Assembly: GCA_029204225.1 (NCBI GenBank) | Contig: CM055113.1 | Coordinates: forward strand, 12,362,234-12,426,233 | Length of the DNA stretch: 64,000 nucleotides | Direction: 5' to 3' | Origin: Diphasiastrum complanatum | Taxonomy: Eukaryota; Streptophyta; Lycopodiopsida; Lycopodiales; Lycopodiaceae | In this document: positions 4,880-61,685 of the stretch, one piece after another | How the letters are laid out: each line of letters opens with the position of its first letter | Numbering within the stretch: the stretch's first letter is position 1 | The notes under the pieces: generated by a model | Databases searched by the model: none | Told to the model about the DNA's origin: nothing | The model's input: the letters and a program-made list of their open reading frames with translations, nothing else | Program-made: the position numbers and the translations under genes

Positions 4880-6480
4880 CCTCACCACAAACATCTAATC
4901 AAGACACTTGGTGGATTGATATGGGGCAAGCTCTCACATGACTCACCAAAAAGACTACTTTTCTAATCTATTTTCTTACAATAGTTCTAAGAGATTTATC
5001 TTCATTTCAAGTGATCAATAATGTGAGATTGTAGGTGTTGGATCCATTCCTTATGTGTAGGATCATCTAAAAAAGTAGATCTAGACAATGTTCTTTATGT
5101 AGCTTCAATTACAAAGAACTTGTTGAGTGTAGGACAACTTATGGATAGTGGATTAGATGTATATTTCAAGCATGCATGTTCTATCTTGAAAGATGGAAAA
5201 TGTATTGCTAGTGGTTTCAAGCAAGGGAGGTTATTCAAATTGGATGCTAATGTGATGGTTGGAAGTGTGAACATGGAGCTCACTCAAGTGGAATTATGGC
5301 ACAAAAGGTTAGGCCATCCTAACTACAAAGCTATGGAGACCATGGTGACAAAGGAGCTAGCAAGTGGACTTCCCAAAACCATATCCAAGTGGCTTTGTGA
5401 AGCTTGTGGACTCTCCAAATCTCATAAGCTTCCTTTCAAGAGATCTTTGATAAGATCTAACTCTCCTCTTGACCTTATACACTCGGATGTTCGTTCATTT
5501 TCACGTGAATCAAATGGTGGAGCTCTCATGTATGTCACTTTTATTGATGATAGATCAAGATATTCTTGGGTTTATCTCTTGTCTAAGAAAAGTGAAGTCT
5601 TTGAGTCCTTTGGAAAGTTCAAAACTCTTGTGGAAAAACAACTTAATACTAGCTTGAAAGTATTAAGAAGTGAAAATGGAGGGGATTACATCTCCAATAG
5701 GATGAAAGAGTTTTGTGAAACTAATGGCATTAAAAGAGAGTATACTTGCACATATACTCCACAACAAAATGGAGTAGCTGAGAGAAAGAATAGGACACTA
5801 TGTGAGTGTGCTAAAGCTATGAGATTAGATGCATCTCTTCCTATTTCATTGGGGAGAAGCTATTTTATGTGAAAACTTTCTTTGTAATAGAATAACTAAT
5901 AGTGCCATTAAAGGACTTACACCATTAGAGGAGTTTTGAGTTCCAAAAAGACCCTTTAAGAATTCGTGCAAGATGCCTTTTTTATTATTGAAATATTATA
6001 ACACCAATACTTTTGACTTGCCATAACTTCTTAATCGTAGCTCAAAAGTATGTTATCTAACATATCATTGGAAAGCCCTTGTCAAGCACTTTCTAATGCA
6101 CCAAACTCTGCTAAATTCGGGCTTAACACTAAAAAGTTATGCCATTTTTAGTATGGAATCAAAATGTGGACTCAAAAAGCTACGTTATATAGATTTCAAA
6201 TTTGAGTGTTTTGATTGGTCCATGTGTAAGAAAAATTTGAGAAAAAATATAAAGAATCTTTACAAAGGGTCTTTTTGGGATTTAGAACTCCTCTAATGCT
6301 TATGAAGTATTGTTTGGCAAAAAGCCAAATCTAAGTGATTTGAAAGTTTTTGGATGTACTTGTTATGTATATATTCCTTTAGAAACAAGGAAAAAAAAAG
6401 GTGCCACTTCTTTCAAAGGCATATTTGTTGGTTATAATGAAAGTAAGAAAGCTCATAGGATATTTGATCCTATTAAGAGC
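4880..6480 (+). pseudogene. Copia A pol remnant: protease and integrase
   Basis: 4895-5110 is a frameshifted protease remnant (WWID followed by GASSHM-like residues in a shifted frame). 5120-5872 reads as the GAG-pre-integrase zinc domain (HKRLGH...CEACGLSKSHK) and the integrase core, with LIHSDV, LRSENGGDY (D-D-E family; the Asp motif is altered to SENGGD) and PQQNGVAERKNRTL. After the MITE the frame resumes with YEVLFGKKPN to RIFDPIK. Nothing further of pol remains. Confidence 0.85.
5923..6298. mobile_element. MITE sharing the termini of the 35.8-45.1 kb element
   Basis: This 376-bp insert begins CATTAGAGGAGTT and ends with the matching inverted sequence, about 35 bp at each end including AAAAAGACCCTTT. 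It has no ORF of its own. Removing exactly these bases restores the copia codons for GLTPYEVLFG (aca|cct tat), the residues expected there and seen with the same codons in copia C, so no target duplication is evident. The inner right flank also matches the large element (tagatttcaaat, then ttttgattgg, near 6190 and 44980), so it is a relative or deletion derivative, not a chance TIR match. Confidence 0.9.
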
Positions 6481-29000: not shown

Positions 29001-29237
29001 TTCAGCATTTGCTGTATAGATAGACTTTATAGGTCCATCATAAGATAAGGGAGAAGAGAAAAACTCCCTTTTACTAGTCATGTGTGAACTAGCACCCAAG
29101 TCAATCCACCAAGGATCTTCTCCTTTGAAGCTTGTTGAAGAAAATATGGACATCATGAGAGAGTCCTCATGTGAACTCTCCTCCTCCTCCTCTTTCTCAT
29201 GCTGTCTTGGCTTTGATCTTGCTTCCTCTTGAAGCAT
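26100..29237 (-). CDS. Copia C Pol polyprotein (protease, integrase, RT, RNase H)
   Basis: 1045 residues without a stop. Order: protease (about residue 46, Asp-Leu-Gly where Asp-Ser/Thr-Gly is normal), pre-integrase zinc domain (HKRLGHVNS...CEACALSKAHK), integrase D-D-E (LIHSDV; LRSDNGGEF; PQQNGVTERRNRTL), RT (KWVFKLKLNANGS, KARLVAKGYAQEKGIDY, catalytic YVDD near residue 765), RNase H (SDSDFARDKRDRKST; SLSSTATKEVLWIK). The usual copia SSTEAEY in RNase H reads SSTATKEV, another likely lesion. It lies one frame (-1) from gag, whereas Ty1/copia in plants normally has a single ORF; the offset arises between the knuckle and the acidic Glu run, so an indel is more likely than programmed frameshifting. 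Confidence 0.95.
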   Translation of the reverse strand: MLQEEARSKPRQHEKEEEEESSHEDSLMMSIFSSTSFKGEDPWWIDLGASSHMTSKREFFSSPLSYDGPIKSIYTANAEACKIEGVGSIPLCLGSSKKINIEGVLYIPTITKNLQSVGQMVDNGFNVDFASNKCFIKKKGKIVAKGTRLGKLYKLNAFVDTNVVMLAEKSKISTFTLWHKRLGHVNSGSMEAMIKEEYALGLPRSIGKEDKVCEACALSKAHKKVFPNSITKSSHPLELIHSDVHIASTKSNGGSSMFLTFIDDYSRYCWVFLLSFKSQVFDTFVKFKLFVEKHHNHSIKILRSDNGGEFISNEFKAFCEEEGIKKETSCPYTPQQNGVTERRNRTLCECSKALRLDACLPKSFWGESLVCANYLMNRVSCKAIEGKTPYEMLYGKKSNLNHLKVFGCICYVHVPLETRTKEDPSSTRGIMLGYASSSKGYKVYLPSLNKFVVSRDVIFDEHHMHMLEEGLSAPTIKKKMAEEQDLGFEEELMEEQAPNPPITPRRSSRAKVEPSRLTYQGKGQKVEGISFTSYALSSFEELSNVEDALNSKEWYKAMLDEYDALIENETWLLVERPQRNVIGCKWVFKLKLNANGSVNEHKARLVAKGYAQEKGIDYEETFAPVAKMVTIRLIIALASHFGWILCQMDVSNAFLNGFLEEDIYMEQPQGFIKHGMENKVCHLQRSIYGLKQASRSWNSRLHCYLISLSFVQSEYDPTLYIKFDDVGIVLLLIYVDDIIISGNSVVGIEKIKIDLSLEFKMVDLGCLHFILGIEVLRGSDFIFINQVNYAQSLLKKFKMEVCKSVDTPMEQDVKVPNEDDERSFMDITLFRQLIGSLMWITITRPDLSFSVFRLIQSMQKPLNIHWKKAKRILRYISGTLDFGILYRGDVINLHAFSDSDFARDKRDRKSTSAYSTFIGEGVVSWLSKKQETISLSSTATKEVLWIKRLLVELKIMDSEEAPIIYNDNISAQHLASNPIFHARSNHIEICHHFVREMVQAKEIALEHVPSNECVADLLTKPLQKTPFMKFRSSLGVISKAMIEPS

Positions 29238-30040
29238 TCCGAGGCATAATGCCCCATCTTGCTACAATAGTAGCACTTCACCTTTGATTTGTCCTTCTTG
29301 ACTTTGGTGGTTGATGGAGATGCCTTTGGGGGTCCTTCTTGATCCTCAAGCTTTGTAGACTTCTTGAATGTTGATCCTTTGCCTTTGGACTTGCCTTTGC
29401 CTTTGGTGAAGAGAGCTTCGTCATCTCCACCTTGGATGGAAAGCCTATCCATCCTCTCTTGCATTTGGCTCCTTCTTGATTCCTCGGCCATGAGTGTGCC
29501 TTGGAGTTCTTCAAGTATGGGTAGCTTACCCATAATTGCATATCCCTGAACCAAATTGTCAAATTCAAAGCTTATTCCATTCAATATGAGTTGAACAAGC
29601 TCTTCATCCTTGATAGGGTCACCTATAAAGGCTAGCTCTTTGTTCAATTCCTTTACTCTTAGGACAAAAGTATGTGCACTCTCTCCTTTCTTTTGATAGC
29701 TTCTATAGATTTGATTCTTCAAAGCTAACATTCTAGTTTGGTTCTTGGATTCATAGACCTTTTGCAAAGTCTCCCAGGCATCTTGAGCTGAAGTGCAATC
29801 TCCTACCTCTCTTAAGAGTTCATTTGCAACATTCATTTTTATGCAATGTAGTGCAACATTGCACCTCTTGATGTATTTGGCTTTTTCTTGAGGATGAATA
29901 GGTTCACCCTCCTTACCATTTACAATTTCCATCAGATCTTGCATGATCATGATAGATTCCATTCTAACTTTCCATATGGAATAGTTAGTTTTGTTGAGCC
30001 TTTCATTAGTATCCAAAAGATATGCATTTATAGATGCCAT
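29153..30040 (-). CDS. Copia C Gag
   Basis: 295 residues, open throughout. Residues about 1-210 form the capsid domain (LNKTNYSIWKVRMESIM, CNVALHCIKMNVANELL, AWETLQKVYES); a Lys/Ser-rich linker follows; the knuckle CYYCSKMGHYASEC is at about residues 254-267. Gag would assemble the cytoplasmic virus-like particle around element RNA. The ORF ends in an Arg-rich run that overlaps the start of pol by about 85 bp in another frame. Confidence 0.93.
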   Translation of the reverse strand: MASINAYLLDTNERLNKTNYSIWKVRMESIMIMQDLMEIVNGKEGEPIHPQEKAKYIKRCNVALHCIKMNVANELLREVGDCTSAQDAWETLQKVYESKNQTRMLALKNQIYRSYQKKGESAHTFVLRVKELNKELAFIGDPIKDEELVQLILNGISFEFDNLVQGYAIMGKLPILEELQGTLMAEESRRSQMQERMDRLSIQGGDDEALFTKGKGKSKGKGSTFKKSTKLEDQEGPPKASPSTTKVKKDKSKVKCYYCSKMGHYASECFKRKQDQSQDSMRKRRRRRVHMRTLS

Positions 30041-35842: not shown

Positions 35843-35877
35843 CATTAGAGGAGTTCTCAATATCAAAAAGACCCTTT
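35843..35877 (+). repeat. Left terminal inverted repeat
   Basis: 35 bp, pairs with 45058-45092 with one G/A mismatch at position 8. Confidence 0.95.
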
Positions 35878-36360
35878 AGGGAATGCCATGCAGGATATAC
35901 AAAAATATCAAAATAAATAAAACAATATTGTTTATCTGCTTGCCCACACCACTCCCAAGGCCTCCCCAACTCCCAATGATCTAATCATAGAGTCTATAGT
36001 CACAGTTAAGAACCGTTAACAGTTCGTAGTATAACTTGACTAAATTCAAAAATATTCCCTCCATTGGTTACGAAAAGGGCAATATTTTCACTGGATCTAG
36101 GATATGACCGCCATCTCCAAATTCGAATCAGGAAAAATTGCAAAATATTTACATATGCATTCTTTCCACGAGAATGGAAATATGAGCGTCAACTACCTAT
36201 TGGAATGAAAAAATGAGCGGCATTTCCAAATTTGAATCAAGCATGGAGATTGAATTGATTCTACATAGTATATAATATAATCAAAGATGAGTATTTTGTT
36301 TTGCTTCATAGAATCTGGTCATAGTACTTTGATGCAACTGATTACTCTATTATTTTTTTG

Positions 36361-38919
36361 ATGATGACATTATATCATCTACATGTGGATATCCCTATTG
36401 ATTTGGCACCTTTGCAGAGAAGAGGAGGCAAAGGAGTTCAAATATCTGCTAAAGATCGTTCTCGTTACAGGGCAGAAGGAAAGAAAAACTTGGATTTGTG
36501 GACAGATGGAATATTATATCCACAAGATCCAAGCACTTTGACATATCCCACATTCTCTTCAATAACTCATTTAGTTACATGGATATGCAATGGGCATAGT
36601 GGATTACTAGGATACTGTGAAAGATTGCAAAACCATAAAAAACAACTTTATATGAATAAAGTTCACTTTTTAGAAGGTGAGTTAATTCGGATACCTTCCT
36701 ATTGTCAGAATAGAGATTGTCCAAAAGATGTTAGAAGAAAATGAACAACTTAAAAAAAATAATGAATCATTACAGAAGATAACAATCAATATTAAATCAG
36801 AACTAGAGCAAATGCAATTAGTCTTACAGTCTATTTGTATTGAAAACTTACAATTACTGAAGGATGTGGATTTGGTAAAGAAGCAGGCTGAAAGTAAGAA
36901 GCGAAAGCGACAAAGTTGCAAGGATATTCAAACGCTTTCAAAAGGAGGTTATCGAAATAGAAGGATCTGTGCATTCAAGTAAGCATATTCTGAATTTTGT
37001 AAGTTTTTCAATGACATTTGGGTTTAATTTCAGCTATGGTGATATTCTGTTAACTACATGTTTTTTTGTAGATCTGCATTAGTCGCTCCTCGGAATATTA
37101 AAGACAATGCTTCACTAAGAATGTGATTGGGCACAATATTGACTTGCAAATCCATTGAGCGTATCATGATGAACAATAGAATTTCAAATGTAAAGTGTAA
37201 AATAGCATAGTCTTTGATGGTGGACATTCAAAATATTTTAGATAAGACTATAGTTCAGGGTGCTTGTGATTTTGTAGGTACTAGTAGGGAAGCATATGCA
37301 ACAATATTTAAACTAATTAGAGAAGCTTTTAAGCAAGTTCAAATTGGAAAAGTCCCAATCCCTAGGACATATCACTTGAAGAAAGAGAGAGATACATTAA
37401 ACATATGTATGCATAAGATCACTGGAACTCCATTTCATATTGAGGAGGTGTATGAAATTGATGGAAGATCGATATTCTATAATTCATCAAACAATTTATT
37501 TGTTGATCTGAATTACTTGCGGAGATACATCGTCACATTCTATGATATAACCTATGAAAAGGTGAATGGCAAAATAATCATAGTACTTAAGTTAGATGAG
37601 TCAGAAATTGTGAAAGGGCAAAAGATGGAAAGGGTTAGTATAACTCTCATGAATGGTGCTCTATCACAAACAGAGAACCAAGAAGATTTCAAATTCAGTG
37701 TCCAGTCAGAAAATGATATATGGTGGTTGGCAGCGTTTCAGGTAACTAGCCTCATTATTACATTACATTCATTGAATAGTATTAATACATTGTAAACTAA
37801 GTTTGATTAATTCTTTGGACAGGTGCTGAAAGAGGATTATGATATATTATCATGGATATTCTCAAGGACATCTTATCCTAGGATCATCAAGGACCATATG
37901 GATGGAGGACTTCTCAATGTTCCAGGAGTTGGAGACTTCAATGTTGAATGGCACTTAGCAGGTGAGTTGAAAACATTGAAATGTATGTACAATATCTCTC
38001 ATGGTGCTACATGAAAACACCCTTGTTTGTACTGCATGAAAATGGCAAAAGATGTAACTAGGAGTACAAGAATTACAAGAGAATATGCAGATCCAAACTG
38101 GAAACCTGTGTTGCCTATCCCCTTAAAAAATGTGCATGTTTGCACTCTTCATGCAGAAGTTAGATTAATAGAAAATATCATTTATCTTCATATAGTTTTT
38201 GCTTGGAATACCAAGCCAGCATCATTAGCAAAGGAAGCTATGTCTCGATTAGAAGATGTTTTATCAAAACCAGGACTCCATAAAAGACACGTCAAAATTC
38301 AAAAAGATAAAAAGCTTTCAGGAAAGAATGGGAAGATGCCAACTAAGCCAAACATAGGAGAAGCAAAAGCACGTCGTTTTCTATCAAATCATACTAGTAA
38401 GGCTTCTAATATTCACTCAGTCTGGACAGATATTATTGTTGCCACTCAGGACTTTGAGAAAGACAGCAAAACTAGAGTACTAAAAGTTGATGTATGGAAA
38501 AAGCTTGATAGTATGGTTGCTATTTTAAGAAAAGAAAAATACTCTAATATTGATAAGAAAGCTGTCCAAAGGACTCGTGTCAAGTTTGTTAATGCAATAT
38601 CAAAAGCATGGGGAGAAGATCACATCACTCATTACATGGTTAGTATAAAATCTTCAAAATGCTTTAAAATTTTCATATATATTTAGATCCAAACATAAGA
38701 CTAACATTATGATTTTCACATATGCAGCACATACTAAGACATCATACAACATTTTTTGCAAATACATATGGAAGCTTGAGTGTATGGTCATCACAAGGGA
38801 TGGAGAAGTCACACTGGCAAGCACGAGTAGCGTTTCATCGAAATACACAACATGGAGGAACCAATGAAAAACGAAACTACATTTGTCAATTGTTTCAGTG
38901 GTTCTACCGCAGAGTTTAG
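36361..38919 (+). pseudogene. Transposase-like gene, five exons, three in-frame stops
   Basis: Exon pieces: about 36361-36680; 36728-36978 (coiled coil); 37072-37741; 37823-38638; 38728-38919. Introns with GT-AG at 36979-37071, 37742-37822 and 38639-38727 keep the frame; the first junction (36680-36727) is unclear and may be a frameshift. Stops lie in frame at 37124 (TGA), 37208 (TAG) and 38012 (TGA). Motifs: VLKLDES (candidate first acidic residue), HLAGELKTL followed by KHPCLYC (a zinc pair), CTLHAEVRLIE, and a terminal WSSQGMEKSHWQ (candidate Glu). This Asp...GD/ELK-L...C-x-x-C...LHA-x-x-R...QG-x-E order is that of an RNase-H-fold transposase with an inserted zinc site, but I cannot name the superfamily. 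It is the best candidate for the enzyme that mobilises the element. Confidence 0.6.
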
Positions 38920-39089
38920 ATTTGACATATAACAAAGTCCACAGATGATTACTGAGTAGAAGATCATCATTGCTGAGTAGAAGATCATGATGACATGTTC
39001 AGAATTGCTTTGCAAATTCATTGAACAAGAGAGGAGAAATACCCAATGTAAATGTATTGATTGTATTATACCAAAATACAAAGTGTCAA

Positions 39090-40603
39090 CTATTCATCAT
39101 TAGATCTTGTATCAGATTCTATGGTAGTATTGTCATGAAGAAATTCTCTGCTAGCGTATGCATCTAATAGATGTGCATTATTCTTATTTCCACTAAGCTC
39201 AATATAAGTAGAATACAATGAATAATGGGAGCTCCTTAAAGGAACATTCCCATCAGTAAAGCCTAAAATGTTCAAAACATAAGATCTTTTGACAAAAATA
39301 ATCTTATTTGTCTTAACAAATTTATGTCCTCCTAGATAAAATGATAAAGCTTTAACTGCCATTGTAAGACTCTCCCTGACTGGGCTCAGCTTGGAATGAG
39401 CAATACAGATCTTATTCTTCAAGAAATGCCTAAGATAGTGGTCCAATCCACTGTCCCTCTGGAACGAGGATGCGTGTTGTCTGAAACCACCTCGTCTTGC
39501 AGCAAAGTCATCTATTATGAGAGCATCCTGCAATAGGAAATATGTTAGCAAACACACATTCAGTGATTGAAAATATTCAAATACAAGGAAGATTTAAACA
39601 CTTACACATTCTTCATCATCAACAACAACCAGATCAGGATGATCAATATAATGACCATGTATTGAAGTGGAATCATTAGTGAAGTGCATTAATGATGGAC
39701 GAGGGAAGCCCATCTGTGATTGAAATGCCGTGAATTCTTCATCGGATGGTCTGCCTCGCCCATCCTTAGCTATATTTGATAAAGTCTTATTCAGGCATTC
39801 TGGTCATAAGACCCTCCTCATCATCAAAATCAATACCATCAACAAGGTCATCTGTCTCAAAATCTACAAAGTCCGAGAGTTCAAAAATTGTGTCAGATAA
39901 TAAACATAGAACCTTGTCCTCACGATAGTCAAAAAATTTAGATAAACCAGTAGTAGTAAAATATATATCGTCATTAATATAATATATAGACAAATTGAAA
40001 AGACATTTTGAATCCTCCATAGATTTGGATTCATCATTAGATGTATTTTGGCCAATGAAAGAATCTCGGAGAACATCAGTATTTACATCAATGAAGTCAC
40101 TTTCTTTATCAGGAGTGTCGATAAGAAAGTGATTGATATCCTTAATGGCTGACTAAACAGAGGAGGGTGCAAAAGGAGGGTCAGCAACAAGACCTTCATC
40201 ATCATCTGGGATCTGAACTAACAGAAAAAGTATGAAACCACTCTAATATTCAACCAATTGACATTTCTTGTTGCAATACGGGCACATTGAACTACTTTTG
40301 AAAAGATCAAACAATTTGGTGAACATTCTATCCAGTCTATGTCTAAAAGCTGGGAAGAAATGAACAAGAACAGTATAATGCATGTACTGGAGTGGACCTA
40401 TGGAGAAAACAGGCTTGCTAAGTATATCTCTGAATCTGACATAATTTTCATAAAATATGTCATAATTACGGTTGTGTAGTCCTGAAAACATGTAGATATG
40501 GTCTGAATAGACTGTGGAAGTAGTCTAGGTTTTCAGTAATCCCAAATTCACTCAGAAATGAACTCAAGCCTGATTCTCGTGAGGATGATGAGGAAGAGGC
40601 CAT
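39090..40603 (-). pseudogene. Unknown gene with acidic region and Cys cluster, divergent from the histone gene
   Basis: Starts at ATG 40603 with a Ser-rich tail (MASSSSSSRESGL), then an aromatic-rich domain in a second frame (40491-40243) ending CPYCNKKC, a likely zinc site. A frame break falls near 40490. Further coding pieces: 40020-39787 (acidic, ending near DDEEGL) and about 39770-39611 (GRGRPSDEEFTAF...VVVDDEEC), which meets a GTAAGT donor; the last exon begins at about 39528 after CAG (DALIIDDFAARRGGF) and runs to 39090. A possible DNA-binding or accessory partner of the transposase, but I recognise no family. Confidence 0.45.
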
Positions 40604-40649
40604 GGTAGTAACGTGGATATCACACTTGTGCGCGCGGGAGAACTGAACC

Positions 40650-41403
40650 AAAACTAACTATCAAAATGGCGCAGAAGATGGATATGTACGACAGACAGAT
40701 ACAGACTATCGCACTTGTGCACGAGTAGGTATAGTTGCAAGCAAACGGACGGCAATGAGCGCGCACAAAAGCGATATGTCGCAAATTTTGAGAACGAAAA
40801 AGGTGAAACATTTTCAGTTTTCGTGCCATTTATACTAAATTTTTGCATGTGTGGTCAACAGACTTAGGACACGTGTCTACTTTCAATTGGACAATAGGCG
40901 CAGACACGTGTGAGATGACACCTGCACACGTGTGAAATGACACCTAGACACGTGTCGCATCTTCATTCAATTGCTCATAAACACGTGTCGCTCTCGCATT
41001 TGATCGTACAAATCCCACACGTGTAATGTGACAGGGTCCGTACAACTCCCACACGTGTGACAAGACGTTCTTTCGCACATGCGAACCCCGATATAAAATC
41101 ACAAATTTCAATAAATTTTTTCACTTTTTTTTTCGCTCCGCATATCACATTTGTGTGCACCCTTCACAATCGAAATTCCTCCTACTGTCTTCCATGCGCA
41201 TAGGTCCGATACGTCTACCTATGTGTCACCCCATATCGCACTTGTGCAGCTTTCCTCAAATCTAATCGTTCTCTTTGATATTTGGCTGGCATAGGTCTGA
41301 TATACCGTACATTCTATCCGTACATAGCGGTCATCTGCGAGTTCTTTATCATCCCTCCTTTCTCACCCTAACTTTCACGCACAAGTCTGCTATCACATAG
41401 TTC
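40650..41403. promoter_or_regulatory. Bidirectional promoter region with seven CACGTG sites
   Basis: It separates the minus-strand unknown gene from the plus-strand histone gene. CACGTG occurs at 40870, 40905, 40927, 40949, 40982, 41018 and 41052, all in a CACGTGT context, several as full CACACGTGTG or ACACGTGT palindromes. Variants (CACTTGTG) lie at about 40624, 40710 and 41236. Six bases would be expected once in about 4 kb, so seven in 188 bp is not chance. CACGTG is the plant G-box bound by bZIP and bHLH factors. The sites could also bind the element's own proteins. Confidence 0.75.
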
Positions 41404-42048
41404 ATGCCCATGGATAGGAAAAAGCAGACAAGGAGGGACTTCTTCTTTCCTGGTTCATCCTCATCTCCTACGGTTGCCATCACACCACCTGCTAGACCTA
41501 GAACGCGCAACCGTAGCAGGTGGCTCTCTAAGATACGCAAGTATCAGAGGTCAACAGCTCTGTTGATCCCAAGAGCTCCATTCTACCATGCTGTCCGGAA
41601 TATAACAAGAAATTATCTCAGACAACATGTTAAATTCACATCGAGTGCTCTTCGGTGCCTTCAGGAGGCTGCTGAAGATTATATTAGCCTGTTTTTTGAG
41701 GATTCTTTTTTGCTTGCCATCCATACCAAGAGGGTTACCATAATGCTCAAGGATTTTCAGCTTCTGATGAGAATGATGGATAGGTACTATAGGTTACATG
41801 TATCTCAGCCTATAGCTCCTAGACCAACTCCTGTAGATAGGACTAATCTTCCTACGAAGCGTGCTAGGAAGCAGACAGCTCCCAAGCGTGCTCCTAAGAA
41901 AGTGAAGCCTAACTCTTCAGATTCTATGAAGCCTATCCAAGAATCCATTGTAGATAACGCTGTTATTGATAATGTTGTAAATATAGCTATCTCTGTTTTG
42001 GATACTTCTATAATTGTTGTAAATACTATACATATTGTTTTAGACTAG
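41404..42048 (+). CDS. Histone H3 variant, CENH3-like, encoded by the TIR element
   Basis: 214 residues, no stop. An alternative start is ATG 41410. N-tail residues 4-11 (DRKKQTRR) echo the R-x-K-Q-T start of H3. Residues about 41-126 are a complete H3 fold: alphaN (IRKYQRSTALLIP), alpha1 (FYHAVRNITRNY), loop 1, alpha2 (SALRCLQEAAEDYISLFFEDSF), loop 2 (HTKRVTIM) and alpha3 (KDFQLLMRMM). LLIP, R-x-IT, QEAAEDY and KDF are closer to plant CENH3 than to canonical H3 (LLIRKLP, REIAQ, QEA-EAY, KDIQL), and loop 1 is at least one residue longer than in H3, a CENH3 trait. The 88-residue C-terminal extension is unusual and holds a basic run (KRARKQTAPKRAPKK), a likely nuclear localisation signal. It could mark chromatin for insertion or bind the element. 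The family call is from memory of the motifs. Confidence 0.85.
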   Translation: MPMDRKKQTRRDFFFPGSSSSPTVAITPPARPRTRNRSRWLSKIRKYQRSTALLIPRAPFYHAVRNITRNYLRQHVKFTSSALRCLQEAAEDYISLFFEDSFLLAIHTKRVTIMLKDFQLLMRMMDRYYRLHVSQPIAPRPTPVDRTNLPTKRARKQTAPKRAPKKVKPNSSDSMKPIQESIVDNAVIDNVVNIAISVLDTSIIVVNTIHIVLD

Positions 42049-42069
42049 ATGAACTTGATTTTAGTATTA

Positions 42070-43058
42070 ATTTTAGAGTTCTAGATTGTCTGGATCTCAA
42101 AGACAGACGAGCTTCTGTCAGTGATCCTGTGATAGAGTCCGGGCTTACACTCTTGCAATATGACATTGCAAGATATTCATCAAATGAGTTGCTGGTGCAG
42201 AGTAACTTCCTGCTTCAGGCCGTCAAGGAGAACAATGACACATTGTCACAGTGTCTGACAAGTGGATTCACACCAGCAACAAAGTATCTGCTCATACCTT
42301 ATCATACGAAGTAAGTTATATTAAATGCTTCTTGCTATTTTATGCATTAACATTGGCATTGTCAATGAAAATAGTTCTCATAATTGCAACTAAAGAAATT
42401 TCAATCTTATTTTGCATTGACCACGAGAGTTTAAACCTGATCTCTATTAAGAGATCTATAAATAATATTATTAAATGTTTTTGTGTCAAGATGAATTTGA
42501 CGAGAAATACGCATAAGGATGTAGATATATACATTCCATATATAAGTAAATATATTCCTACAGACGTTCCCCATTCCGTGGACTGGCAGATCGTCAGATT
42601 GGAGGTAAACTCTATCTTTCTTAATAGCATTTTGAAATCAGTATTCTAATGAAATATTTTCAATCTAATTCATTCTGTTTCATAATTAATTTCTTGTGTG
42701 CTGAATTATTTTGCAGTCACCCTAGCAAAATTATTCATTCACCTGTGGGTGGTACACAATGTACAATGCCAAGTTGTTTTTTGAGTGGTTGAACCTTCAA
42801 CAAGATGTTGATATTTCTAAGGTAATAAATTCTGTTTATTCTTATTTTGGAATCATGATTAGTTTTCTATTCTGGTGATGTTATTGGTCATTACTAATAC
42901 ATGAATGTTCTATTTTGCAGTTTACACTTCTTGAGTACACATCAAGCCAGATGTACAGATTTAGACAAGAAATTATCCTAAGTATAATGGCTAGGGCAAG
43001 GCTTCAGCCTCCCGTTATTGATGATGGTTCAAAGGATGATGTAGTTGTACTAAATTAA
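42070..43058 (+). pseudogene. Ulp1/C48-like cysteine protease remnant
   Basis: Exon pieces about 42070-42311, about 42420-42604, 42717-42821 and 42921-43058 join with GT-AG introns and a constant frame at the last two junctions. KYLLIPYHT near 42290 resembles the IP-(x)-H region. The block QIVRLESP, a TAG stop at 42723-42725, then QNYSFTCGWYTMYNAKLFFEW resembles the Ulp1 motif P-x-Q-N...-x-CG-x-(F/Y)...; the stop replaces a Gln position and the residue before CG is Thr instead of the common Asp. The tail (MYRFRQEIILSIM) resembles the C-terminal RxxI helix. The middle His-Trp region is not clear. Ulp1-type deSUMOylases occur in several plant DNA transposons. It may be a separate gene or the 3' half of a fusion with the histone ORF just upstream. 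Confidence 0.5.
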
Positions 43059-43383
43059 GATAAAAAAAAATATAGATAACATAGAACAAAAATAGATGTA
43101 TAGACTTCATAGAAAAATATACATTGATATATCAAATGCTGCTCCAGTTTATGAATTTGGGAGCACAAAATACATGTATAGATGCCCAACTTTGGCTTTC
43201 ATTTATTGAATGAAAGAGTGTATACAAAGATTTTTACTAAAGTTTATTTGAAACTATTGTTCTCCCACAATGGTGATTGTTGTAGGTAGATCTTTGCAGC
43301 ACGTCATCAGCTCCTGTCTTTTTTCGCATCTGTGACATGGCAAATATTAGTGAATGTGCAATTGTAAATGATGACATTTTCTA
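43059..43383. other. Convergent spacer inside the TIR element
   Basis: AT-rich sequence between two genes ending towards each other. It presumably holds their 3' ends; no coding content. Confidence 0.4.
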
Positions 43384-44620
43384 TTATTTTGTTCTATTTT
43401 CAAATGGCAATAAACATAAAGTACTTACGAGTCTTCCGTTGATGATAAATCTGAAATATGTTGGTAGATTGGTTTGTAATAGCATGAGCTCTATTCTGAT
43501 AAAATCAAGCTTCCAGTGCTCTTCCACCTCAAACATAGTCAAATATTCCTCAATGTAGATAATGCTTATCTCCATTCGGTTTGTGTGACCATTTAGTTCA
43601 AAGTCTTGATCCAGTGGTAGCCATGTACCTTCAATTTTCTTGTATCTCTGGTAGCTAAATGTGAGACTGAGCATTGGCTTTTCGATATGATAATGAAAGA
43701 CCATTGAGGACTTTTTAATCCTACATTCTATGTCATTATTTGTTTTACTATCCCAGCCTTGATCCATGAGATCTAACAAAGTCTCATCTGATAAATCCTT
43801 GCAAACAAATAAAGTTGGTATCCTATGAACACCAGCACTCGAGAGAAAATCAACAAATGTATGCAATGAGATAAACCAACTTAGGTGAACAATTTTTGAG
43901 CCTGTGCTTATCTTCATAGCATTTGTAATATCAATGAGTAGCTTGCATCTCAAGGATTCAAAAACAATGCTATCAGGAGTAGGCCACTCATCACTTTGAA
44001 AACTAGGCAATGGAATTGCTTCGAGCTTGCCAAAACCTCCATCTGTTTGTGGCGTATATAAAGATTCATAAAAATAGATACCACAATCTGCAAGTTACTT
44101 TGGACTTCTTCCTCTGAATTGCAGCTTTCCAACATCAAAATGAATCACGTCTAATATTCCTGCAAGTGATTGTGCGGGCTCCCATTCACTTATGCATGAT
44201 GGATATAAATCTGAAAGAAAAAAACAATGTTGAAGCATTTAAATCATAATCTAAAGAGCATCAATAAAGAAAATCACCTATGATTGTTGTAGAGTGCATA
44301 TGTTTTGATATACTTACAATTACATTTTTGATGATCATGAGGATTGATATCATGTACTTTGATTTCTGAATGCATATATACATGTTGCACTAAGACTTCT
44401 GATATCGATTGACCTCCCGGGGTAGTCTTAAACTCCAAAATTTTTGCTTTCCAATAAGATTTGTAAGTCATTTTTGCTCTTTTCTTTTGTCGAAAATTGC
44501 CCTTTGATGATGGATGCAGCAATACCCATGAGTTCTTCATATATTTTGTTAGCTCCAGTTATCAGCTTCATCTTTCTCATTGTAAAACATCACATAATCG
44601 ATTGTAGATCTGGGTCTCCT
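43384..44620 (-). pseudogene. Unknown multi-exon gene of the TIR element
   Basis: A candidate start is ATG 44616 or in the overlapping frame near 44540. Exon 1 includes YKSYWKAKILEF and VLVQHVYMHSEIKVHD and ends at a GTAAGT donor near 44315. Exon 2 follows a TTTCAG acceptor near 44210 and reads through to about 43435, apart from a TAA after LQFRGRSPK near 44101. It includes YFYESLYTP, FESLRCKLLIDI and HLSWFISLHTFVDFL. Exon 1 has a frame break near its start. No recognisable family: no signal peptide, zinc site or helicase motif is seen. The downstream ORF continues past a possible donor to 43384. Confidence 0.45.
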
Positions 44621-45057
44621 TGCCATTGCTATTTTCAAAGCTTGGGCGCCAAAAATCTCTCTGATATGTTACTTAATTATAATTTTTCGTATCACATTTA
44701 ATCTAATGTGAATGCCAACATAGTCACAGTTACTGCATATACCATATTTTATGTAACTATACATACTATATTTCTATAATTGTAACTAGTATAGTTAGAA
44801 AATTTCATTATACTAACCAGCATAGTAAAGTAAATTTAACTTGAGATATTGACGTCGGGCAGATTAGCACGTGTCGGGCAGGAAGAAGAAACCAATGGGA
44901 TACGTCCATGCTGCCCGGACACAAATTTCAAAGTTTTCTATATTGCATTTTTATTTTTTAGTTAATTTGAACTACGTTACGTAGATTTCAAATCTGTGCA
45001 TTTTGATTGGGCCTGGTGACGGTTGAAACTAAAGAAAAGATATAAAAGTATCTTTAC

Positions 45058-45092
45058 AAAGGGTCTTTTTGATATTGAGAACTCTTCTAATG
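45058..45092 (-). repeat. Right terminal inverted repeat
   Basis: Reverse complement of the left end. The 100 bp inside it resemble the right end of the MITE. Confidence 0.95.
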
Positions 45093-45588
45093 CTATAGGG
45101 CGTGTGGTGAAGTTCACACGTGCTAAAAACTTCACATCAGTCTCCTCAATATGTCATTCATCGTGATGTTCCGATCAAGACGGAGAATCATGATTTCCTA
45201 GCATGGTGGCTCAATGGATGAACTTTGCTGGGTCTCTGCTCACCACAATGGGGATACACGAGTGTGTCTTTTTGGGAAAAATTAATATGGATTTTATAAC
45301 TTTCGCCTTTAGCACCCAGTTTCCCAATGACTCACTAATAGACCCTTACCAATCCACCATCAAGTGTTTAGGCCTACAACCATTAATTATGACCATGTAC
45401 ACATAAGGGCCCCAATTCCCTTATAGTCACAATTAGCTTATGGGTTGTGGACATGCTACTCGAGACTAGTCATGGGCCAAAATCTATTATTCTATTTACA
45501 ACTCAACTTGCGTGCTCATTGGGCCATGGGCTTATACGTGCAGGATGTCATGCCCTAGCAACATATTTTAATAGCCAATATTATTTAT
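45093..45588. other. Region beyond the right TIR without a gene
   Basis: Possible continuation of the copia E LTR or flanking unique sequence; it holds a TTCACACGTG near 45113. No supported coding region. Confidence 0.35.
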
Positions 45589-45777
45589 TTACAATATGTT
45601 GGGAATACCCAACACTATCCACCATATATGATTTTCTGATTGAACACTAAATGTGTGATCATTTGATACTTTGCTCATCAAAATGATACTCACCCGTTCC
45701 AACTTTTGACCTTTGATGATTTCAGATTTATTAAGTTTCATCACAACAATCCACTCAAATGAAACATGCAGAGACAT
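45589..45777 (-). pseudogene. Second transposase fragment outside the right TIR
   Basis: The 62-residue ORF contains VVMKLNKSEIIKGQKLERVSIILM and FSVQSENHIWW-type sequence, matching 37570-37735 of the transposase gene in the element (VLKLDES, KGQKMERVSI, FSVQSENDIWW). The candidate catalytic Asp is Asn here. It is a remnant of a separate related copy, inverted relative to the first, about 500 bp beyond the right end. Confidence 0.85.
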
Positions 45778-46432
45778 TTAGTCTTTGGTGAGTACAAGCA
45801 CCCTTAACTAATTAATGCTTGAAGTTAGAGCTAGTAAACCATAGTAGTCAAAATGCGGGCATAACCAGAAACTCGAAAACGGCAACGGATTGTTACTGGT
45901 TTCTATTCTCTCTATGCGTAACCTCTCTTTAAAGTCAAACTTCTTAAAGGGCCCATTTTGATCCCATGTTTTCCCTAATGAATGCATCACGATCAGGGCC
46001 CATTGTTTACATGCTTCTTAGATGCGAAGGCTCATACCCCTACACTCTTCTACAACATTTTGGTGACTTGCAACATTATCATTGGTTAACTTATCTTAAG
46101 GATGTGCCATTGGTTATGAAGAAGGCAAATATATGTGATATATTCAAGCATTCTTATAAATGCACATATAAAAGTTCCATTGCCATTGATTATCAGGAGG
46201 GTGCCAACATATACTAGTTATCCTTTGAGGATGGTAGCATTTTGAGCCACGGGGGCGATAAATTGTGGGACAAGGCGATAACTAGTCATCAATTGACAAA
46301 TACATGATGTAGCAATTGGAGATAAATGCCTCATATTGAAAGTGTGTTTAGCCCCTACTATGGCTTATAATCAAGCTTTCTTAGCCAACCACAACATGCC
46401 ACATTCATGTTTTCTCTCTTCACAATTACTAT

Positions 46433-46835
46433 GGGATATAAAGGACTTTTCAATATGAATGCACATATTTTTAAATAGGATGTGACATATGTGAATGTAA
46501 AACAATCTAATTACCAAATTGAGTAGTCAATATATTGATAACAAGGACTATTATTAAATGAGATGTGACATATGTGAATGTGAGAGGGACTTCTTATGAA
46601 TGCACATATTTTCAAATAAGATGTGACATATGTAAATGTTAGGATCTCAAATAAATTGAGTGGTCAATATGTGATAGCAAGGACCACTTATAAATGCACA
46701 TATGCATAAATGCGCATATGTATAAATGAGATGTGACATATGTAAAAGAAAAGTAGTCAAATTAAGTAAATATGTAATAGCCAAAATCTCCTATAAATGC
46801 ACATTTTTTTGAATGAAATGTGAGCGTAAAGTAGT
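46433..46835. repeat. Diverged tandem-like repeat (GATGTGACATATGT words)
   Basis: The words GATGTGACATATGT(G/A)AA and AATGCACATAT recur at about 46480, 46560, 46616 and 46730 at unequal spacing (about 55-115 bp). A satellite-like decayed array; no coding content. Confidence 0.7.
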
Positions 46836-47166
46836 CAAATGAGATGTCATGTGCTCCTCGCAATGAACTATGTCCGATAGCAATCATGAAGAGGAGCATG
46901 GATGTAGTGGCCCTTGTTGTGTCCACGTCTTGGCCATGCTACATCCTATATTCCTCATTCTCAATGATGCTACAAAGGGACCATCAAATCGTGTGCCTTG
47001 CCCCACATTTTCAAAGCATTGCCTAGCTGAAGCCAGCAGTTCAGCCTTGCTTAACAACCACCAGCCACAATGCCACAATTTTTTTCTTTCAAGACCCTTG
47101 CCATGCAACCTATGGCAAGGCCGTTTTTAGTGCCACAAGCAATCCTTCTAAGTAGCAATTCATGCA

Positions 47167-47169
<3 letters not shown>

Positions 47170-47229
<60 letters not shown>

Positions 47230-47240
47230 GTATGTATATA
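47170..47240. repeat. AT and TATG microsatellite
   Basis: An (AT)n run followed by (TATG)n. A short ORF there translates only as repetitive residues and is not a gene. Confidence 0.95.
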
Positions 47241-47976
47241 TAGACATACACATGAATTTAGCAAATTATCTTGATGTGTGCGCTTGTGTGGGGGGCAGGC
47301 GTGAGCCCAGAAGGTTGACATTTTAGAGAGGGCTTGCAAGTGAATGAATCAAGGTATACCATTTGCCAATTTCAAGCCTATCAACATTTGCCATGTCACT
47401 ACCAGATGGATGTTGTTAATTAAAGAGCACTATCTTTACGACTTAAGGCCCTCTCCCCAGGGCTTTAATATCCAACATAAAAGCCACATAATGCCCTACC
47501 CAAGGCATAATGTCGACACCATCAAGACATTAGTTGGGCTTTTGATGGGTATATTGCCATGTTCAAAGAAATCTCCCAAGATGTTTACATTTCCTAGTGA
47601 CCTTTCCACTGGGGGATCTTGCTATGAAAGGCTTTAGCTAACATAAATGCCACATAAAGTGTTGTATTCACATGATGCCTCATAAAGTCCCATGCCTAGG
47701 GCATAACTCCCTACCCAAGCAATGTCCTAAGGTGTTTGCATATGAGGGAATGGAACAACCTCACCGTTTGTTTATGTCATCATTCCTTAGTGGAAAGGTC
47801 ACTATGAAATTGACTCACTTATGTAAAGAATGAGTGATGCTATTGAAAGTAGCAAGTTTAGGTCACAATCTCTCTCTACACATATTACCCATTCCACTCT
47901 TTCTTTCTTCAAAAAAGTGAGAACCACTTATGACTTGTCTCTTTCTCTCATCTCTCTCCCCAAGTGTGGGGACCAC

Positions 47977-47977
<1 letters not shown>

Positions 47978-48034
<57 letters not shown>
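47978..48034. repeat. CT/AT compound microsatellite
   Basis: (CT)n followed directly by (AT)n. Confidence 0.95.
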
Positions 48035-48035
<1 letters not shown>

Positions 48036-49123
48036 TATGACCTCTTTTTGATGGCATATTTTATGATTCATGAACAGTTTATGGGAGCACTTCAATTTGA
48101 AACCTTTATGAACTCAAGCCATGATTGCTCTTTTCCACAAATGAAAGTATTACAAGAACACACGTCAAAGGGGTCCTTTACATCAAGATAAGTTCTAGAA
48201 GGAGCAAGAATGGACACATACACTACTTTGTTTCAATTATGCATCGTCAGCTTTTAGATTTTTGTTTAGATGGATCAGTAGCAATTTTTTGAAACATAAA
48301 TGATTTCAATAAATTGATAGGAATGCACACCTTCCATTCATATGGTTGACCCAAAGGTTGTAAAAAATAAGAGGTCATGAGAATGGACACAAGCACACTA
48401 CTTTGACAATGCATTGTCAACTTTTAGTTTTTTTTTTTTTGTAAATTGACTGCACCTCATAACTACCAAAATTTGAAAACATTGACAGTTTTAGTAAATT
48501 TTTTAAAAGGTCACATTCATGGGCTTGACCCAAAAGTGTAAAAAGAAGCCAAAATCAGCAATACATGGCAAAAGGGTCTCAACACAATAATCTCTCCTCC
48601 CCCTTTTCCCCAAAAAAATATTTCCACAACCACATCCATGCAGTCCTAATTTTATTGAGTTTGATGGAAAATAGAGTATTTATCTATGTTGTGAAGGTAT
48701 TTAATTTTAATTTTAATACACTTGGTTGTCAATGAAGGTATTTGACATTGCCAAAAATTTCTAGGCCCACCAAGATTTGTAACCTATGGCTAAAAACCCT
48801 CCATGCTTACAAATTTTTTTATTGTTGACATCTAAATGTGGCTAGGAAATATGAATTCAATAATCAATCTAAACAATATTGATACTCAAAGAATAAATAA
48901 TGATTTTTTAGTTGATAAGAACAACTACAAATATGGGCATTTGGCCACACATTTTGGCATGCACATAAGATGTGGCCCATTTATGGCTCATTGGGGCAAA
49001 TTTTGTGGGGAATGTGGGGCAAGGGCACATGGCTCTACCATGTGTAGTAGTGCTATGCCACCAAATTTCTGGCGATGACCATTGAGAGAAAAATATTAGG
49101 TGATAAATGTCTCTATTAGACTA
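48035..49123. other. Gene-free AT-rich stretch
   Basis: Short ORFs only, none with recognisable content; it includes a T run near 48430. Confidence 0.5.
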
Positions 49124-50068
49124 GATTCTTGATTAGATTTTAATCTTGATTGGATAATTGTTAGTTGGATGTTGAACAATTTGTTTTTGATTAATTAGCT
49201 TGAAGAATTGAAAAATGATTTTTTGAAATAAAAGGATGGTGAATGACTTGATTTTTATTGATTAGTATGTATGTTTATTTGAGAAGAAAGGGCATTGAAA
49301 AGCAAATACATGATGTATGTTAGTAATCCCAAAATGTTATTTTTTTGAGGTTTACTTTGGTGTATAGAAAAGCTTTTCAATTACATTGTATTTTATTGAA
49401 TATTTTTTAATGACTTAATATGTTTATTGTATGTGGATTCTTAAAGAACTGGATAGATTGTTAAATTATGTGATCTTCCATTCGATGTTGGCTTTGAGAA
49501 AAAAAACTATATTGATCTTAAAACAACATTAAATAAACATTAGCATTAATTTAAAAGCAAGAAATTGTGTATGCTCATTATTCGATAAATGTTTGTGATT
49601 CTTGATTAGATTTTAATCTTGATTGAATGATTGTTAGTTGGATGTTGAATAATTTGTTTTTGATTATTAATTTGAAGAATAGAAAAATGATTTTTTGAAA
49701 TAAAGGGATGGTGAATGACTTGTTTTTTATTGATTACTATGTATGTGTTTTTGAGAAGAAAGGGCATTCAAAAGCACATACATGAGGTATGTTATTAATC
49801 CCAAAATGTTATTTTTTTGCGGTTTACTTTGGTGTACAGAAAAGCTTTGCAATTACATTGTGTTTTATTAAATGCTTTTTAATGACTTAATGTGTTTATT
49901 GTATGTGGCTTCTTAAGGAACTTGATAGATTGTGAAATTATGTGATCAATCATTTGATGTGGGTTTTAAGAAAAAAACTATTTTGATTTTCAAACAACAT
50001 TAGATAAACATTAGCATTAATTTAAAAGCAAGAAATTGTGTGTTCTCATTGTTTGATAGATGTTTATA
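49124..50068. repeat. Tandem duplication, two 473-bp units
   Basis: GATTCTTGATTAGATTTTAA starts at 49124 and again at 49597. The two units remain alignable across their length, with substitutions and small indels, ending with the AAGCAAGAAATTGTGT segment before 49596 and 50068. No coding content. Confidence 0.9.
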
Positions 50069-50869
50069 ATAAAAAATGAACTTTTAGTAATTAGAACAAA
50101 GTGATAATGTAATTATATTCTTCAAAAAAGTATGTAGTGTCTTGTTTCTAAAATATTAATGTTTGAAACAAAATCCTTTCCTTTTTCTAGTTAAAAAAAC
50201 TACATGTAACTTAAGAAGTGGTCAGAACATATACGTTCTTAAGGATTGTTGTTTATGACCAATATGTGTGCATATACTTGTGACTGTCAATTTGTTATCA
50301 AAATTGGTTTGGTTTTAAAAATTCTCGATACAAAATGTCAATAAATTTGTTTTTGTCCCCTTGGTCTAGTTGCTCCCAAGGATTAAATAAATCAAGACCA
50401 AAATACTTGAGGGCAAGGTCGTGCATTCAATTGATGACAAACATTCTTGATTATGGACCCATCATCATCAAGATCATGAAATTTGTGGATTTTGTTGGAT
50501 TTATTCCTCTACTCTCCTAAATTGCATGTATTGTTGTAGTTTTACGTGCATTGTCGCACAGTTTGCAGAAATCCTCCATTACTGAAGACAGGCATCAAAG
50601 TAGCAACCGACTTATCGAGGAAGGCTGAACTACCAAGACAACTATATCAAATTAATCCACTTGCGGTAACAAGTCCCAAGGCCCCACAAAAGGTTGACCA
50701 CAAGGGTCCCGCAAGTCCATCACTTGCGGCCTTATGTACAAGTAGCAAGACGGACCGCAAGGGTCCCTAAAATCCATCACCTATGGTCTATTGTGACCCC
50801 TTCACAAGAGTTGTGGTGGCGGTCTTCACGCTAGACTGCTCCATGCTCTTGCTTCACAACTATCATTGT

Positions 50870-51215
50870 ATACTAATAATAACTGCAGCAACCATGATCT
50901 ACTTCAAATTTGTATGATGTTTTGATAGGTGAAGAGGCAAAGCCTAACCCAAATGATGCTGCAATCTCTCGATAGAAGCTGAAGGATGGCAAGGCCTTCA
51001 TGTTGATCATCCTCAACATCTCAGACACATAAATAAGCCATGTGTCCAAAGCGTACCTCAAAGGAAGTCTGGGACATCCTGAGCCCACACAATGTGCGAG
51101 ACATAGCTTCCAAGCTACACCTCAGAAGAAGATTCTTCTCTCTCAAGATGTGAAATGGTGATTCACTATAGAACCACATCAACTAGTTCAAGAACCTGCT
51201 ACAACAAATGGCTAT
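50870..51215 (+). pseudogene. Copia gag fragment
   Basis: Reads, across stops, as FMLIILNISDT, then a LHLRRRFFSLKM block and a FKNLLQQMAI block, closely like copia D gag (LHLRRKFFTLKM, FKNLLQ) . A short orphan piece with no LTR visible. Confidence 0.8.
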
Positions 51216-51424
51216 TAGAGATGGTGAACTCATGCAACCCTTCTCTGGCTTCCTCCGAACGACCGACAAATCAGTGGGATCGACATCGAATTGTTGACTT
51301 ATACACAAGTACTAAGGACGGGATGTCAAGCAGAACGAATCATCGGGCAAGTCCAATTTTCGGGCTCTAGCTCATCGGGCGTGAAGCTTTCAACTGTCAC
51401 GCTCAAAGCTGCAGAGGAACAATA

Positions 51425-52855
51425 TGAGAGAATGTAGTTAACTTAGTTTTTAAAATAATTCTCTTTTGTAATGACTAGTTAGTCTATCTTTTAATCCCAT
51501 ATGTTATGACATAAGTATAGATCAGAGATCAATAGAATGTATGCTACTATGCTGAAGTAGAAGCGAATAAAAAATTCTAAGAAGAGCGTCAGGATGCTAT
51601 GTTGCTATGCATTGTCGACTCACTCTCTAGAAAAGAAGAATACAAAAGACACTTCTATTCTTTCAACTGTTGTTTTCTGGCACTACATATGTTGTTGTGA
51701 TTGATTGTTGCACTTTATGTGATTGGTAGCACCGTCCTGTAATGTAATGCATTGTGTAGCACACTTCCTCACAAAATAGGTGCAAAACTGCAAAAACCCA
51801 AATTCACAGCATGGTATCAGAGTGGATTCATTAGATACAATATGGATACTACAATTTAGACAAGGATTACGATTAATCTTGATTGCACAAATTATCGCAT
51901 GTAGAAGTTCAAGATCAAAACACTTTTAAAAGGCGAAGGGATATGGTCAGTGACCGATCTCACAGAGCAAAAGCCTCCAGATAAAGACCCAAGGAGAGTA
52001 GAATGGATAAGGATGAACGTACAATGACGGTCATCGTATCCTCCATAGATGAAAAAATTCTCATGCAGATTGAAGATTTTCAATGCAGCCATGAAGCATG
52101 GGAGAAACTAAACTAGAAGTATGAAGTGAGGACAGTCACGTCAGTTATGCATCTCCACAATCAGCTACAGAGCTTGTGATGGGATGCCAATGAGCTAAAT
52201 CAACATGTAGAGAAGATCAAAACGATCTTCACTCTGCTTTTTGCATCTGGACAGGAGCATCAAATCCCACCAGCACCCCAACAACTGATGTATTTCATGA
52301 AATCTCTATATATCCTACCAACCTTTGAGAATGCTCATCCTGAGCTTATCTGAGATGACATTCGAGAGGATATTCAATCTCGTTGCAGACAAAAGATTGA
52401 TGAGAGATGAAGGAGAAACACCACCTACACGCAAAATGACAATGAGATAGTGATTATTGACTCAAGAGCTACATCTCACACAACCTGTAACAACAATGTC
52501 TCAATCAACTACAAAACACTCGACAATACAAGAATGGTGATACTAGGTGATGAGAGCATATACAATGTCAAAGGCATTGGAACTCTACAATTTTGTACAC
52601 TATTGAGACATGTAGAACTTCAAGGAGCACTCTATGTATCCACATTAAGAAGAGCTCTTCTCTCTATGTCGAGGATACCAGATCAAGGAAACATATGCCG
52701 AATGGTTGGGCACAGATCTAATAAGCTGCTGACTATCGAGTCAAGACAAGATAATCTATACCATGCCAAAATTGTCATCAGTTATGATAGCATACTGAAT
52801 GCATCTGAAATTGAAAATCATCTCTGGCATAGACGAATGTATCATCCTTGAATTT
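51425..52855 (+). mobile_element. Copia F fragment with PBS
   Basis: TGGTATCAGAGTGG at 51812 is a PBS; the sequence before it (from about 51425) would be the 5' LTR. 51843-52440 is a stop-riddled gag; 52450-52851 reads as protease (IIDSRATSHT; Asp-Ser-Arg in place of Asp-Ser-Gly) to pre-integrase (GALYVSTLRRALLSMSRI, HLWHRRMYHP). It stops at about 52855 against an oppositely oriented copia fragment. Confidence 0.75.
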
Positions 52856-53640
52856 AACATCTCGAACAGCTTTTATTCTGTCAGTTTCGGGTACATAGAC
52901 ACGATAATATGACGAATGTAACTCGAATTCGACTAGAAAACCTTGTTCTATCTTTTCATCGAGTTTCTTTCTCAGCTTGTCTGATATGTGCATATACACT
53001 GCGCATCTGAATGTCTGAACATGTGCTAGATTTGGCTTCGACTTTCACCATATCTCATGAGAGTTTTATCCGGTATTCAAGATTTCAGAATACGATTCTG
53101 AAGATAATACGATGTAGCCACTGCTTCTGCCCACATTGTTTTGGTACTTTCGCATGAGCCATCATACACCTTGCAGCTTCCATAAGTATATGATTCCTTC
53201 ATTCAGCTATTCCATTGTGTATGATGTAGTCTTTGTATGCATAATACCTTGATCAGTACAGTAAGCCTTTAATTCATTGAAAACGTATTCACCTCCATGA
53301 TATGTGCGAATCTGCTTCAACTTATTGCCTGTCTGATTCTCAGCCCACTTCATATACTCAACGAATTTCTCGAAAGCTTCAAAAATTGTACGAATAAAGT
53401 ATACTACAACAAACTTGCTGAAGTCATCAATAAACGTTATGAAATACTTTGCATCATCCAACGACAATACTCTGAATGGTCCACATATATCTGAATGCAC
53501 AATTTTCGAATACATCTACTTCTGATTTTCACTCTTTTGATTCTTTGACTTTTATTGGCTTGGTACAAGGCTTTCATGTTCATGTGACATAGTCTCTTGT
53601 GACACCACAAAATATCTGTCAATTCTCGAGTCTGATGTGA
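52778..53640 (-). pseudogene. Copia G integrase fragment, opposite orientation
   Basis: 53622-53437 contains WCHKRLCHMNM, the integrase zinc region. 53515-53207 contains KIVHSDICGPF (first Asp), TFIDDFSKFVVVYF and IRTYHGGEYV (second Asp motif altered to YHGG). 52999-52778 follows with SDKLRKKLDEKIEQG and YYRVYVPETDRI, the post-integrase part of copia pol. Different family from copia F; the head-to-head join marks a rearrangement. Confidence 0.85.
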
Positions 53641-61650: not shown

Positions 61651-61685
61651 TTTAGACTTGCTCTGAAACTAAACATAATACTCAC

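Follow-up and report, generated by a model that had tools for sequence, protein, structure and literature searches.

What a gene for a core histone might be doing between the ends of a DNA transposon is the question raised by a 64,000-nucleotide stretch of the clubmoss Diphasiastrum complanatum genome, hereafter the window (G000:C22:12362234-12426233), in which a preliminary description had read an open frame as a histone H3 of centromeric (CENH3) type encoded by a mobile element. Anti-silencing factors of transposons and passive captures of histones by transposons are already known; in the present case the core histone appears selected, long-lived and fused to an Ulp1-like domain.

Identity of the histone frame

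The frame spans 214 open codons (41404-42048, plus strand) and gave a Pfam Histone match with an E-value of 6e-25, while comparison with PDB sequences returned Cnp1/H3 chains at approximately 2e-20. Structure prediction placed the H3 helices at residues 36-49, 57-72, 80-107 and 115-132 with ten-residue mean pLDDT values of 88-96 across residues 61-130, and a Foldseek search with this model listed chains from nucleosome entries in 50 of 50 matches. Pfam, PDB sequences, model and Foldseek thus agree on an H3-type histone fold including the N-terminal helix, as first proposed, and a chance reading frame is ruled out by the Pfam and PDB matches together with the genome copies described below. As MDRRKQTRR is the start common to the copies of the same family (family 1), the second ATG at 41410 is the better start than 41404.

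A protein database search with the window protein (P0001) yielded 29 matches among 110 candidates; these were H3/CENH3-like proteins of a general kind, none more than 55% identical. In a profile search, for which the 8000 candidates sharing most words were scored, the best 120 of 2813 matches were mostly canonical H3 and contained one named entry from Diphasiastrum complanatum, P0095. This entry is a family-5 transposon histone on contig C14 of G000, annotated as the host hypothetical protein O6H91_14G014700, so that H3 counts in this species may be inflated by transposons. Viral contigs scanned with the transposase alignment and P0001 gave no confirmed relative.

The element and its insertion

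The histone gene lies within an element at 35843-45092, bounded by a 35-bp inverted repeat (Table 1). The ends had been described as perfect; they do pair over the 35 bp, with one differing position, and are therefore nearly perfect only. Both ends recur at locus L045, the left end at L043 and the right end at L094. A longer element (35843-54195) was ruled out, since CATTAGAGG at 54187 has just the 9-mer in common with the ends. The neighbouring frames do contain stops, as noted from the outset.

Pfam searches with pieces of the transposase and of genes B and D gave nothing above cut-off. The core of the transposase has the RAG1/Transib fold, and we conclude that the transposase of these ~9-kb terminal inverted repeat (TIR) elements is RAG1/Transib-like by fold. 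Inspection by eye of four insertions revealed no target-site duplication in any of them. For the 376-bp derivative, rejoining the flanks restores the frame of the interrupted Copia element, which shows that the ends are exact and that no duplication (0 bp) is present there.

Table 1 Features of the histone-bearing element and of a deletion derivative in the window
Feature	Position	Strand	Evidence or remark
Left terminal inverted repeat (35 bp)	35843..35877	+	also in L043 (0 mismatches) and L045 (1)
Transposase, probable N-terminal exon region	36325..36744	+	ORF; by eye like the P0039 N-terminus
Transposase exon, splice inferred	37211..37741	+	joined frame has 54 database relatives
Transposase exon, one in-frame stop	37823..38638	+	joined-frame database relatives
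Transposase exon	38728..38919	+	joined frame
Gene B, several broken frames	39090..40657	-	pieces have relatives in L066, L068, L069
Seven CACGTG/ACACGTGT palindromes	40870..41057		between gene B and histone gene
H3-Ulp1 exon 1	41410..42310	+	N-tail, histone fold, C-tail; linker and Ulp1 start as remnants
H3-Ulp1 exon 2, inferred	42418..42604	+	Ulp1-like His region; acceptor degenerate in one copy
H3-Ulp1 exon 3	42717..42821	+	Ulp1-like Gln/Cys region; one stop, PF02902 weak in window copy
H3-Ulp1 exon 4, C-terminus	42921..43058	+	ORF and splice comparison
Gene D	43384..44589	-	relatives in L067 and L069, ~46-52% identity
Right terminal inverted repeat	45058..45092	-	1 mismatch to left end; L045 right end 0 mismatches
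376-bp deletion derivative (MITE), ends as in histone element	5923..6298		inside Copia element; TIR matches

Elsewhere in the window, inverted repeat arms of ~3.2 kb, 96-98% complementary, occupy the two ends (149-3370 and 60840-63993), each with a GIY-YIG frame (614-1021, minus strand, PF01541 at 2e-7; 63121-63528, plus strand). A Copia element with long open frames of 1053 and 295 aa lies on the minus strand at 26100-30040, a tandem duplication of ~470 bp with copies 86-96% alike at 49124-50070, and an open BAHD-type acyltransferase frame (PF02458, 2.5e-60), probably a host gene, at 55713-57218.

Copies and families

A genome search with P0001 returned 75-100% identity for all 150 scored matches, drawn from 7400 first-look candidates, so that there are at least 150 matches and a one-off capture is ruled out. 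The matches reach from residues 1-8 to residues 201-214. Most carry stops; by our own count 36 of the 150, a few of them probably small-contig duplicates, are free of stops over the matched stretch.

Searching with Arabidopsis thaliana CENH3 gave 150 scored matches out of 5403 candidates, of which 13 (L021-L033) were canonical host H3. Reading 27 of the remaining 137 assigned three to family 1, 18 to family 2, one each to families 3 and 4, and four to family 5. Between families, 41-66 of 89-100 residues of the H3 fold are identical. For families 2, 3, 4 and 5, the 10 kb surrounding a single member were read, and a related transposase was present every time (four of four), in family 2 on the other strand. 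The Ulp part and gene D were likewise found around the members of families 4 and 5, with family 4 showing the gene order of the window, while within the same 10 kb no Ulp match was seen for family 2 and no downstream one for family 3.

The intergenic region that separates gene B from the histone gene, a divergent promoter region, holds seven ACACGTGT palindromes, compared with at most one in 1000 simple shuffles. Clusters of three to nine lie no more than ~650 bp before the start of the histone in L041-L045, L067 and L069, which takes in other copies as well as families 4 and 5; L066 and L068 have none upstream. Such palindromes might act as promoter boxes or be bound by a protein of the element.

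Relationship to H3 and CENH3

The frame had been called nearer to plant CENH3 than to canonical H3. Comparison of the window protein with both revealed about equal distances, with 47/98 residues (48%) identical to host H3, 47/94 to Cnp1, 46/95 to A. thaliana CENH3 and 49/100 to rice CENH3. In a 31-row tree the transposon histones formed one group (support 82/85) apart from plant CENH3, and they grouped again, more weakly (66/84), in a 29-row tree from which two long rows were left out. Topology tests did not reject a single clade of transposon histones and plant CENH3 (p-AU 0.448); the p-AU was 0.06 for family 1 with plant CENH3 alone and 0.15 for transposon histones with fungal CENH3. A CENH3 identity thus found no support: the best trees set the transposon histones apart from plant CENH3, yet a joint clade is compatible with the tests. 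The longer loop 1, listed earlier as a CENH3 feature, amounts in family 1 to one residue more than in host H3, with Phe in place of Trp; loop-1 Trp occurs in families 3-5 and a longer loop in family 5.

A likely exon of the host CENH3, VREISSQFSTDVTRWTAEALICIQE, encodes 25 residues at C3:74781676, and no further CENH3 exon was recognised in the 9 kb around it; two of the three RW-pattern matches (C7) did not look like CENH3. The exon is identical to rice CENH3 at 15/25 residues, to host H3 at 11/25 and to the window protein at 9/25. On this single 25-residue exon, the only one found, a recent copy of the host CENH3 is disfavoured, and the transposon gene does not appear to be a capture of that gene.

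The N-terminal tail bears on the same comparison. Family-1 copies begin MDRRKQTRRD, with Lys at the Lys4 position in 43 of 46 copies. At position 9 none of the 46 has Lys and 42 have Asp; the whole tail contains exactly one lysine in 39 of them. The six other tails compared, five from family 5 and one from family 3, all keep Lys4 (6/6) and have Leu (five) or Pro (one) at position 9; some of these six have further lysines. Position 9 is thus Lys in 0 of 52 sequences. The tail of host H3 carries lysines at 4, 9, 14, 18, 23, 27, 36 and 37. Among the family-2 sequences read, an H3-like start of this kind is absent, and L036 and L038 have a long proline-rich N-terminal region in its place. In plant CENH3 tails, too, ARTK is kept and Lys9 is missing, so that the tail of the transposon histones may be inherited. 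The transposon histones accordingly resemble plant CENH3 in some motifs and, in families 3 and 5, in an ARTK start; they differ from it in that family 1 is no nearer to CENH3 than to H3, and in their basic C-tail and Ulp1 fusion.

These data allow a judgement on one alternative, in which the protein would mimic CENH3 and be loaded by the host CENH3 machinery, bringing the element to centromeres by integration or letting it ride on centromere chromatin. The motifs LLIPRAPF, EAAEDY and KDF are like those of plant CENH3, and the loop-1 features of families 3-5 and the p-AU of the joint clade would fit. The equal distance to H3 and CENH3 and the Phe in family-1 loop 1 argue against it, as does the chromosomal distribution. 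Out of 127 positions taken, the 120 on contigs of known length were used (seven on C19 were left out), and along 22 large contigs they showed no clustering along chromosomes (KS p 0.40), with copies per chromosome slightly uneven (p 0.02). The suggested targeting to centromeres thus found no support, and we consider this explanation unlikely.

Fusion to an Ulp1-like domain

In many copies the frame continues to ~339 codons, which comprise the N-tail, the H3 fold (approximately residues 36-132 of P0001), a basic C-tail, a proline linker and an Ulp1-like start. The window copy lacks ~107 bp near 42034 relative to other copies. This shifts the frame, so that the window frame is a truncated form, from which alone the fusion is not visible; the statement that it remains open holds for the 214 codons and fails for the longer H3-Ulp1 frame. 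Three predicted introns, matching in phase, connect this frame to exons with HWSL, with PQQND..SCGW and with the C-terminus. Each of the six splice dinucleotides was scored in 22 family-1 copies and is intact in 20, 21, 21, 22, 21 and 19 of them; the sample comprised 24 distinct copies (26 loci), and the other two copies are gapped in this region. The spliced reading of L042 matched both Histone (8e-22) and Peptidase_C48 (3e-9), the latter with 37.4 bits against a Pfam cut-off of 20.7, and its second half matched SENP2/Ulp1 chains in the PDB at 6e-5 to 0.003; the C48 domain in the L069 reading scored 16.3 bits, under the cut-off. According to predicted splicing, the histone is the first half and an Ulp1/SENP-like (C48) domain the second half of the protein in families 1, 4 and 5.

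Such a protein could be an aid to transposition, its histone and protease-like halves packing or protecting excised DNA or shaping target chromatin. Divergent elements retain the histone next to gene B, gene D and the transposase, and the missing duplication at all four insertions hints at an unusual chemistry. We consider this explanation unlikely, about on a par with centromeric mimicry; it leaves the Lys9-less tail unexplained.

Inspection of the putative active site in family-1 copies revealed that the catalytic His is kept in 22 of 22, the Cys in 20 of 22 and the first Gln in 16 of 22 (the rest being five stops and one Pro), whereas the position of the catalytic Asp is occupied by Cys in 20 of 22, so that the His-Asp-Gln-Cys set is incomplete. 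By eye, single copies of families 4 and 5 have Tyr at the Cys position. As both the Asp position and, in these single copies, the nucleophile are changed, catalytic activity of the Ulp1-like domain is doubtful. The same substitutions would suit a decoy in which both halves are inactive and the protein, staying outside nucleosomes, sequesters H4, histone chaperones or SUMO and disturbs silencing in this way. Against this stand the strong constraint on the histone fold and the retention of His and Cys in family 1, and we regard a decoy as slightly less likely still than the two preceding alternatives.

Purifying selection

For the analysis of selection, 48 loci were sampled, giving 46 distinct exon-1 sequences of family 1. 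The pooled pairwise omega was 0.35 for the N-tail, 0.27 for the fold, 0.78 for the C-tail and 0.33 for the linker and Ulp part, values that can be lowered by the choice of copies for protein similarity and, at 25 of the 48 loci, for being stop-free. Between two subfamilies (10 versus 36 sequences), omega was 0.14 for the fold, 0.26 for the N-tail, 0.51 for the C-tail and 0.32 for the linker and Ulp part. Twelve neutral simulations gave mean omega values of 0.71-0.81, with ranges of 0.52-1.31 for the N-tail, 0.61-0.95 for the fold, 0.57-1.02 for the C-tail and 0.56-0.96 for the Ulp part. The pooled omega of N-tail, fold and Ulp part was below all 12 simulations, while that of the C-tail, the sole control internal to these copies, fell within the neutral range. 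As judged from these sequence comparisons, the N-tail, the fold and the Ulp1 part are under purifying selection and the C-tail is not.

A passive, functionless capture as described for H3 in fungal hAT elements (PMC6710886), with which the stops in most of the 150 family-1 matches would agree, is very improbable in view of the region-specific selection, the conserved splice sites and the five divergent families, each beside a related transposase. At the level of sequence, the central point of the preliminary description, an H3-like histone encoded by a family of DNA transposons, is thus borne out by the element, by its matches (at least 150), by the splice-site conservation of the family-1 fusion and by the region-specific purifying selection. 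The outcomes named in advance as refuting it, a single copy grouping with one host CENH3 gene or copies free of purifying selection, were not obtained, the comparison with the host gene covering the one CENH3 exon found.

A proposed role in anti-silencing

The reading we prefer is that histone H3 is a lasting gene of a superfamily of ~9-kb TIR transposons and that its product may serve as an anti-silencing chromatin protein, comparable to the VANC/KIU proteins of Arabidopsis but acting through the nucleosome; we put its probability at about 0.5. It is favoured by the analogy to VANC/KIU and by the Lys9-less tail. Plant transposon silencing uses H3K9 methylation and SUMO. The transposon histone would pair with host H4 and enter nucleosomes on or near the element; with Lys4 kept and Lys9 absent, such nucleosomes could not take H3K9 methylation, and the Ulp1 part might remove or bind SUMO on silencing proteins at the element. 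A bolder version, to which we give somewhat less credence, is that the RAG1/Transib-like superfamily has evolved a chromatin of its own, in which the Lys9-less H3 and the SUMO-protease-like domain rebuild the nucleosomes of the element and block host silencing. If the transposon histone does enter nucleosomes, a mobile element would alter the very substrate of silencing, an idea that the Lys9-less H3 makes testable.

Comparison with known systems

In a search of the open-licence literature, mainly by titles and abstracts, no report was found of an H3-Ulp1 fusion in a transposon, of transposon histones in clubmosses or of transposon histones under selection. With Transib and RAG1 the clubmoss transposase has the fold in common, but identity is 12%, which gives no membership at the sequence level. 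Transib elements produce a 5-bp target-site duplication, which was not seen at any of the four clubmoss insertions.

The nearest histone-bearing elements are the hAT DNA transposons of Dothideomycetes, which measure ~9.5 kb, have TIRs and a captured histone H3 and occur in hundreds of copies (PMC6710886). They resemble the clubmoss element as TIR DNA transposons with an H3 sequence in many copies. The fungal H3 is a copy of the host's own, the elements make an 8-bp target-site duplication, and they are RIP-inactivated in P. fijiensis (PMC6710886); the clubmoss element, in contrast, is RAG1/Transib-like and without duplication in four of four insertions, and its H3 is 48% identical to that of the host, fused to an Ulp1-like domain and under selection.

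Other DNA transposons carry factors directed against silencing. In fungi they encode TET/JBP dioxygenases, which are proposed to help escape silencing (PMC12730594); those enzymes change DNA methylation, whereas the clubmoss cargo is a histone. A 2026 review reports that VANDAL elements of Arabidopsis encode VANC proteins, in some cases with an Ulp1 domain (KIU), which recognise short DNA motifs and thereby reverse silencing in related elements; it gives the role of Ulp1 there as unknown (PMC13317346). Compared by description, the two systems are alike in that a DNA transposon protein bears an Ulp1 domain, on the KIU side in a protein credited with reversing the silencing of its own family; they differ in that the partner of Ulp1 is short-motif recognition in VANC and a histone in the clubmoss. 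If the bolder reading is true, a DNA transposon would here encode a parasite's own, selected component of the nucleosome.
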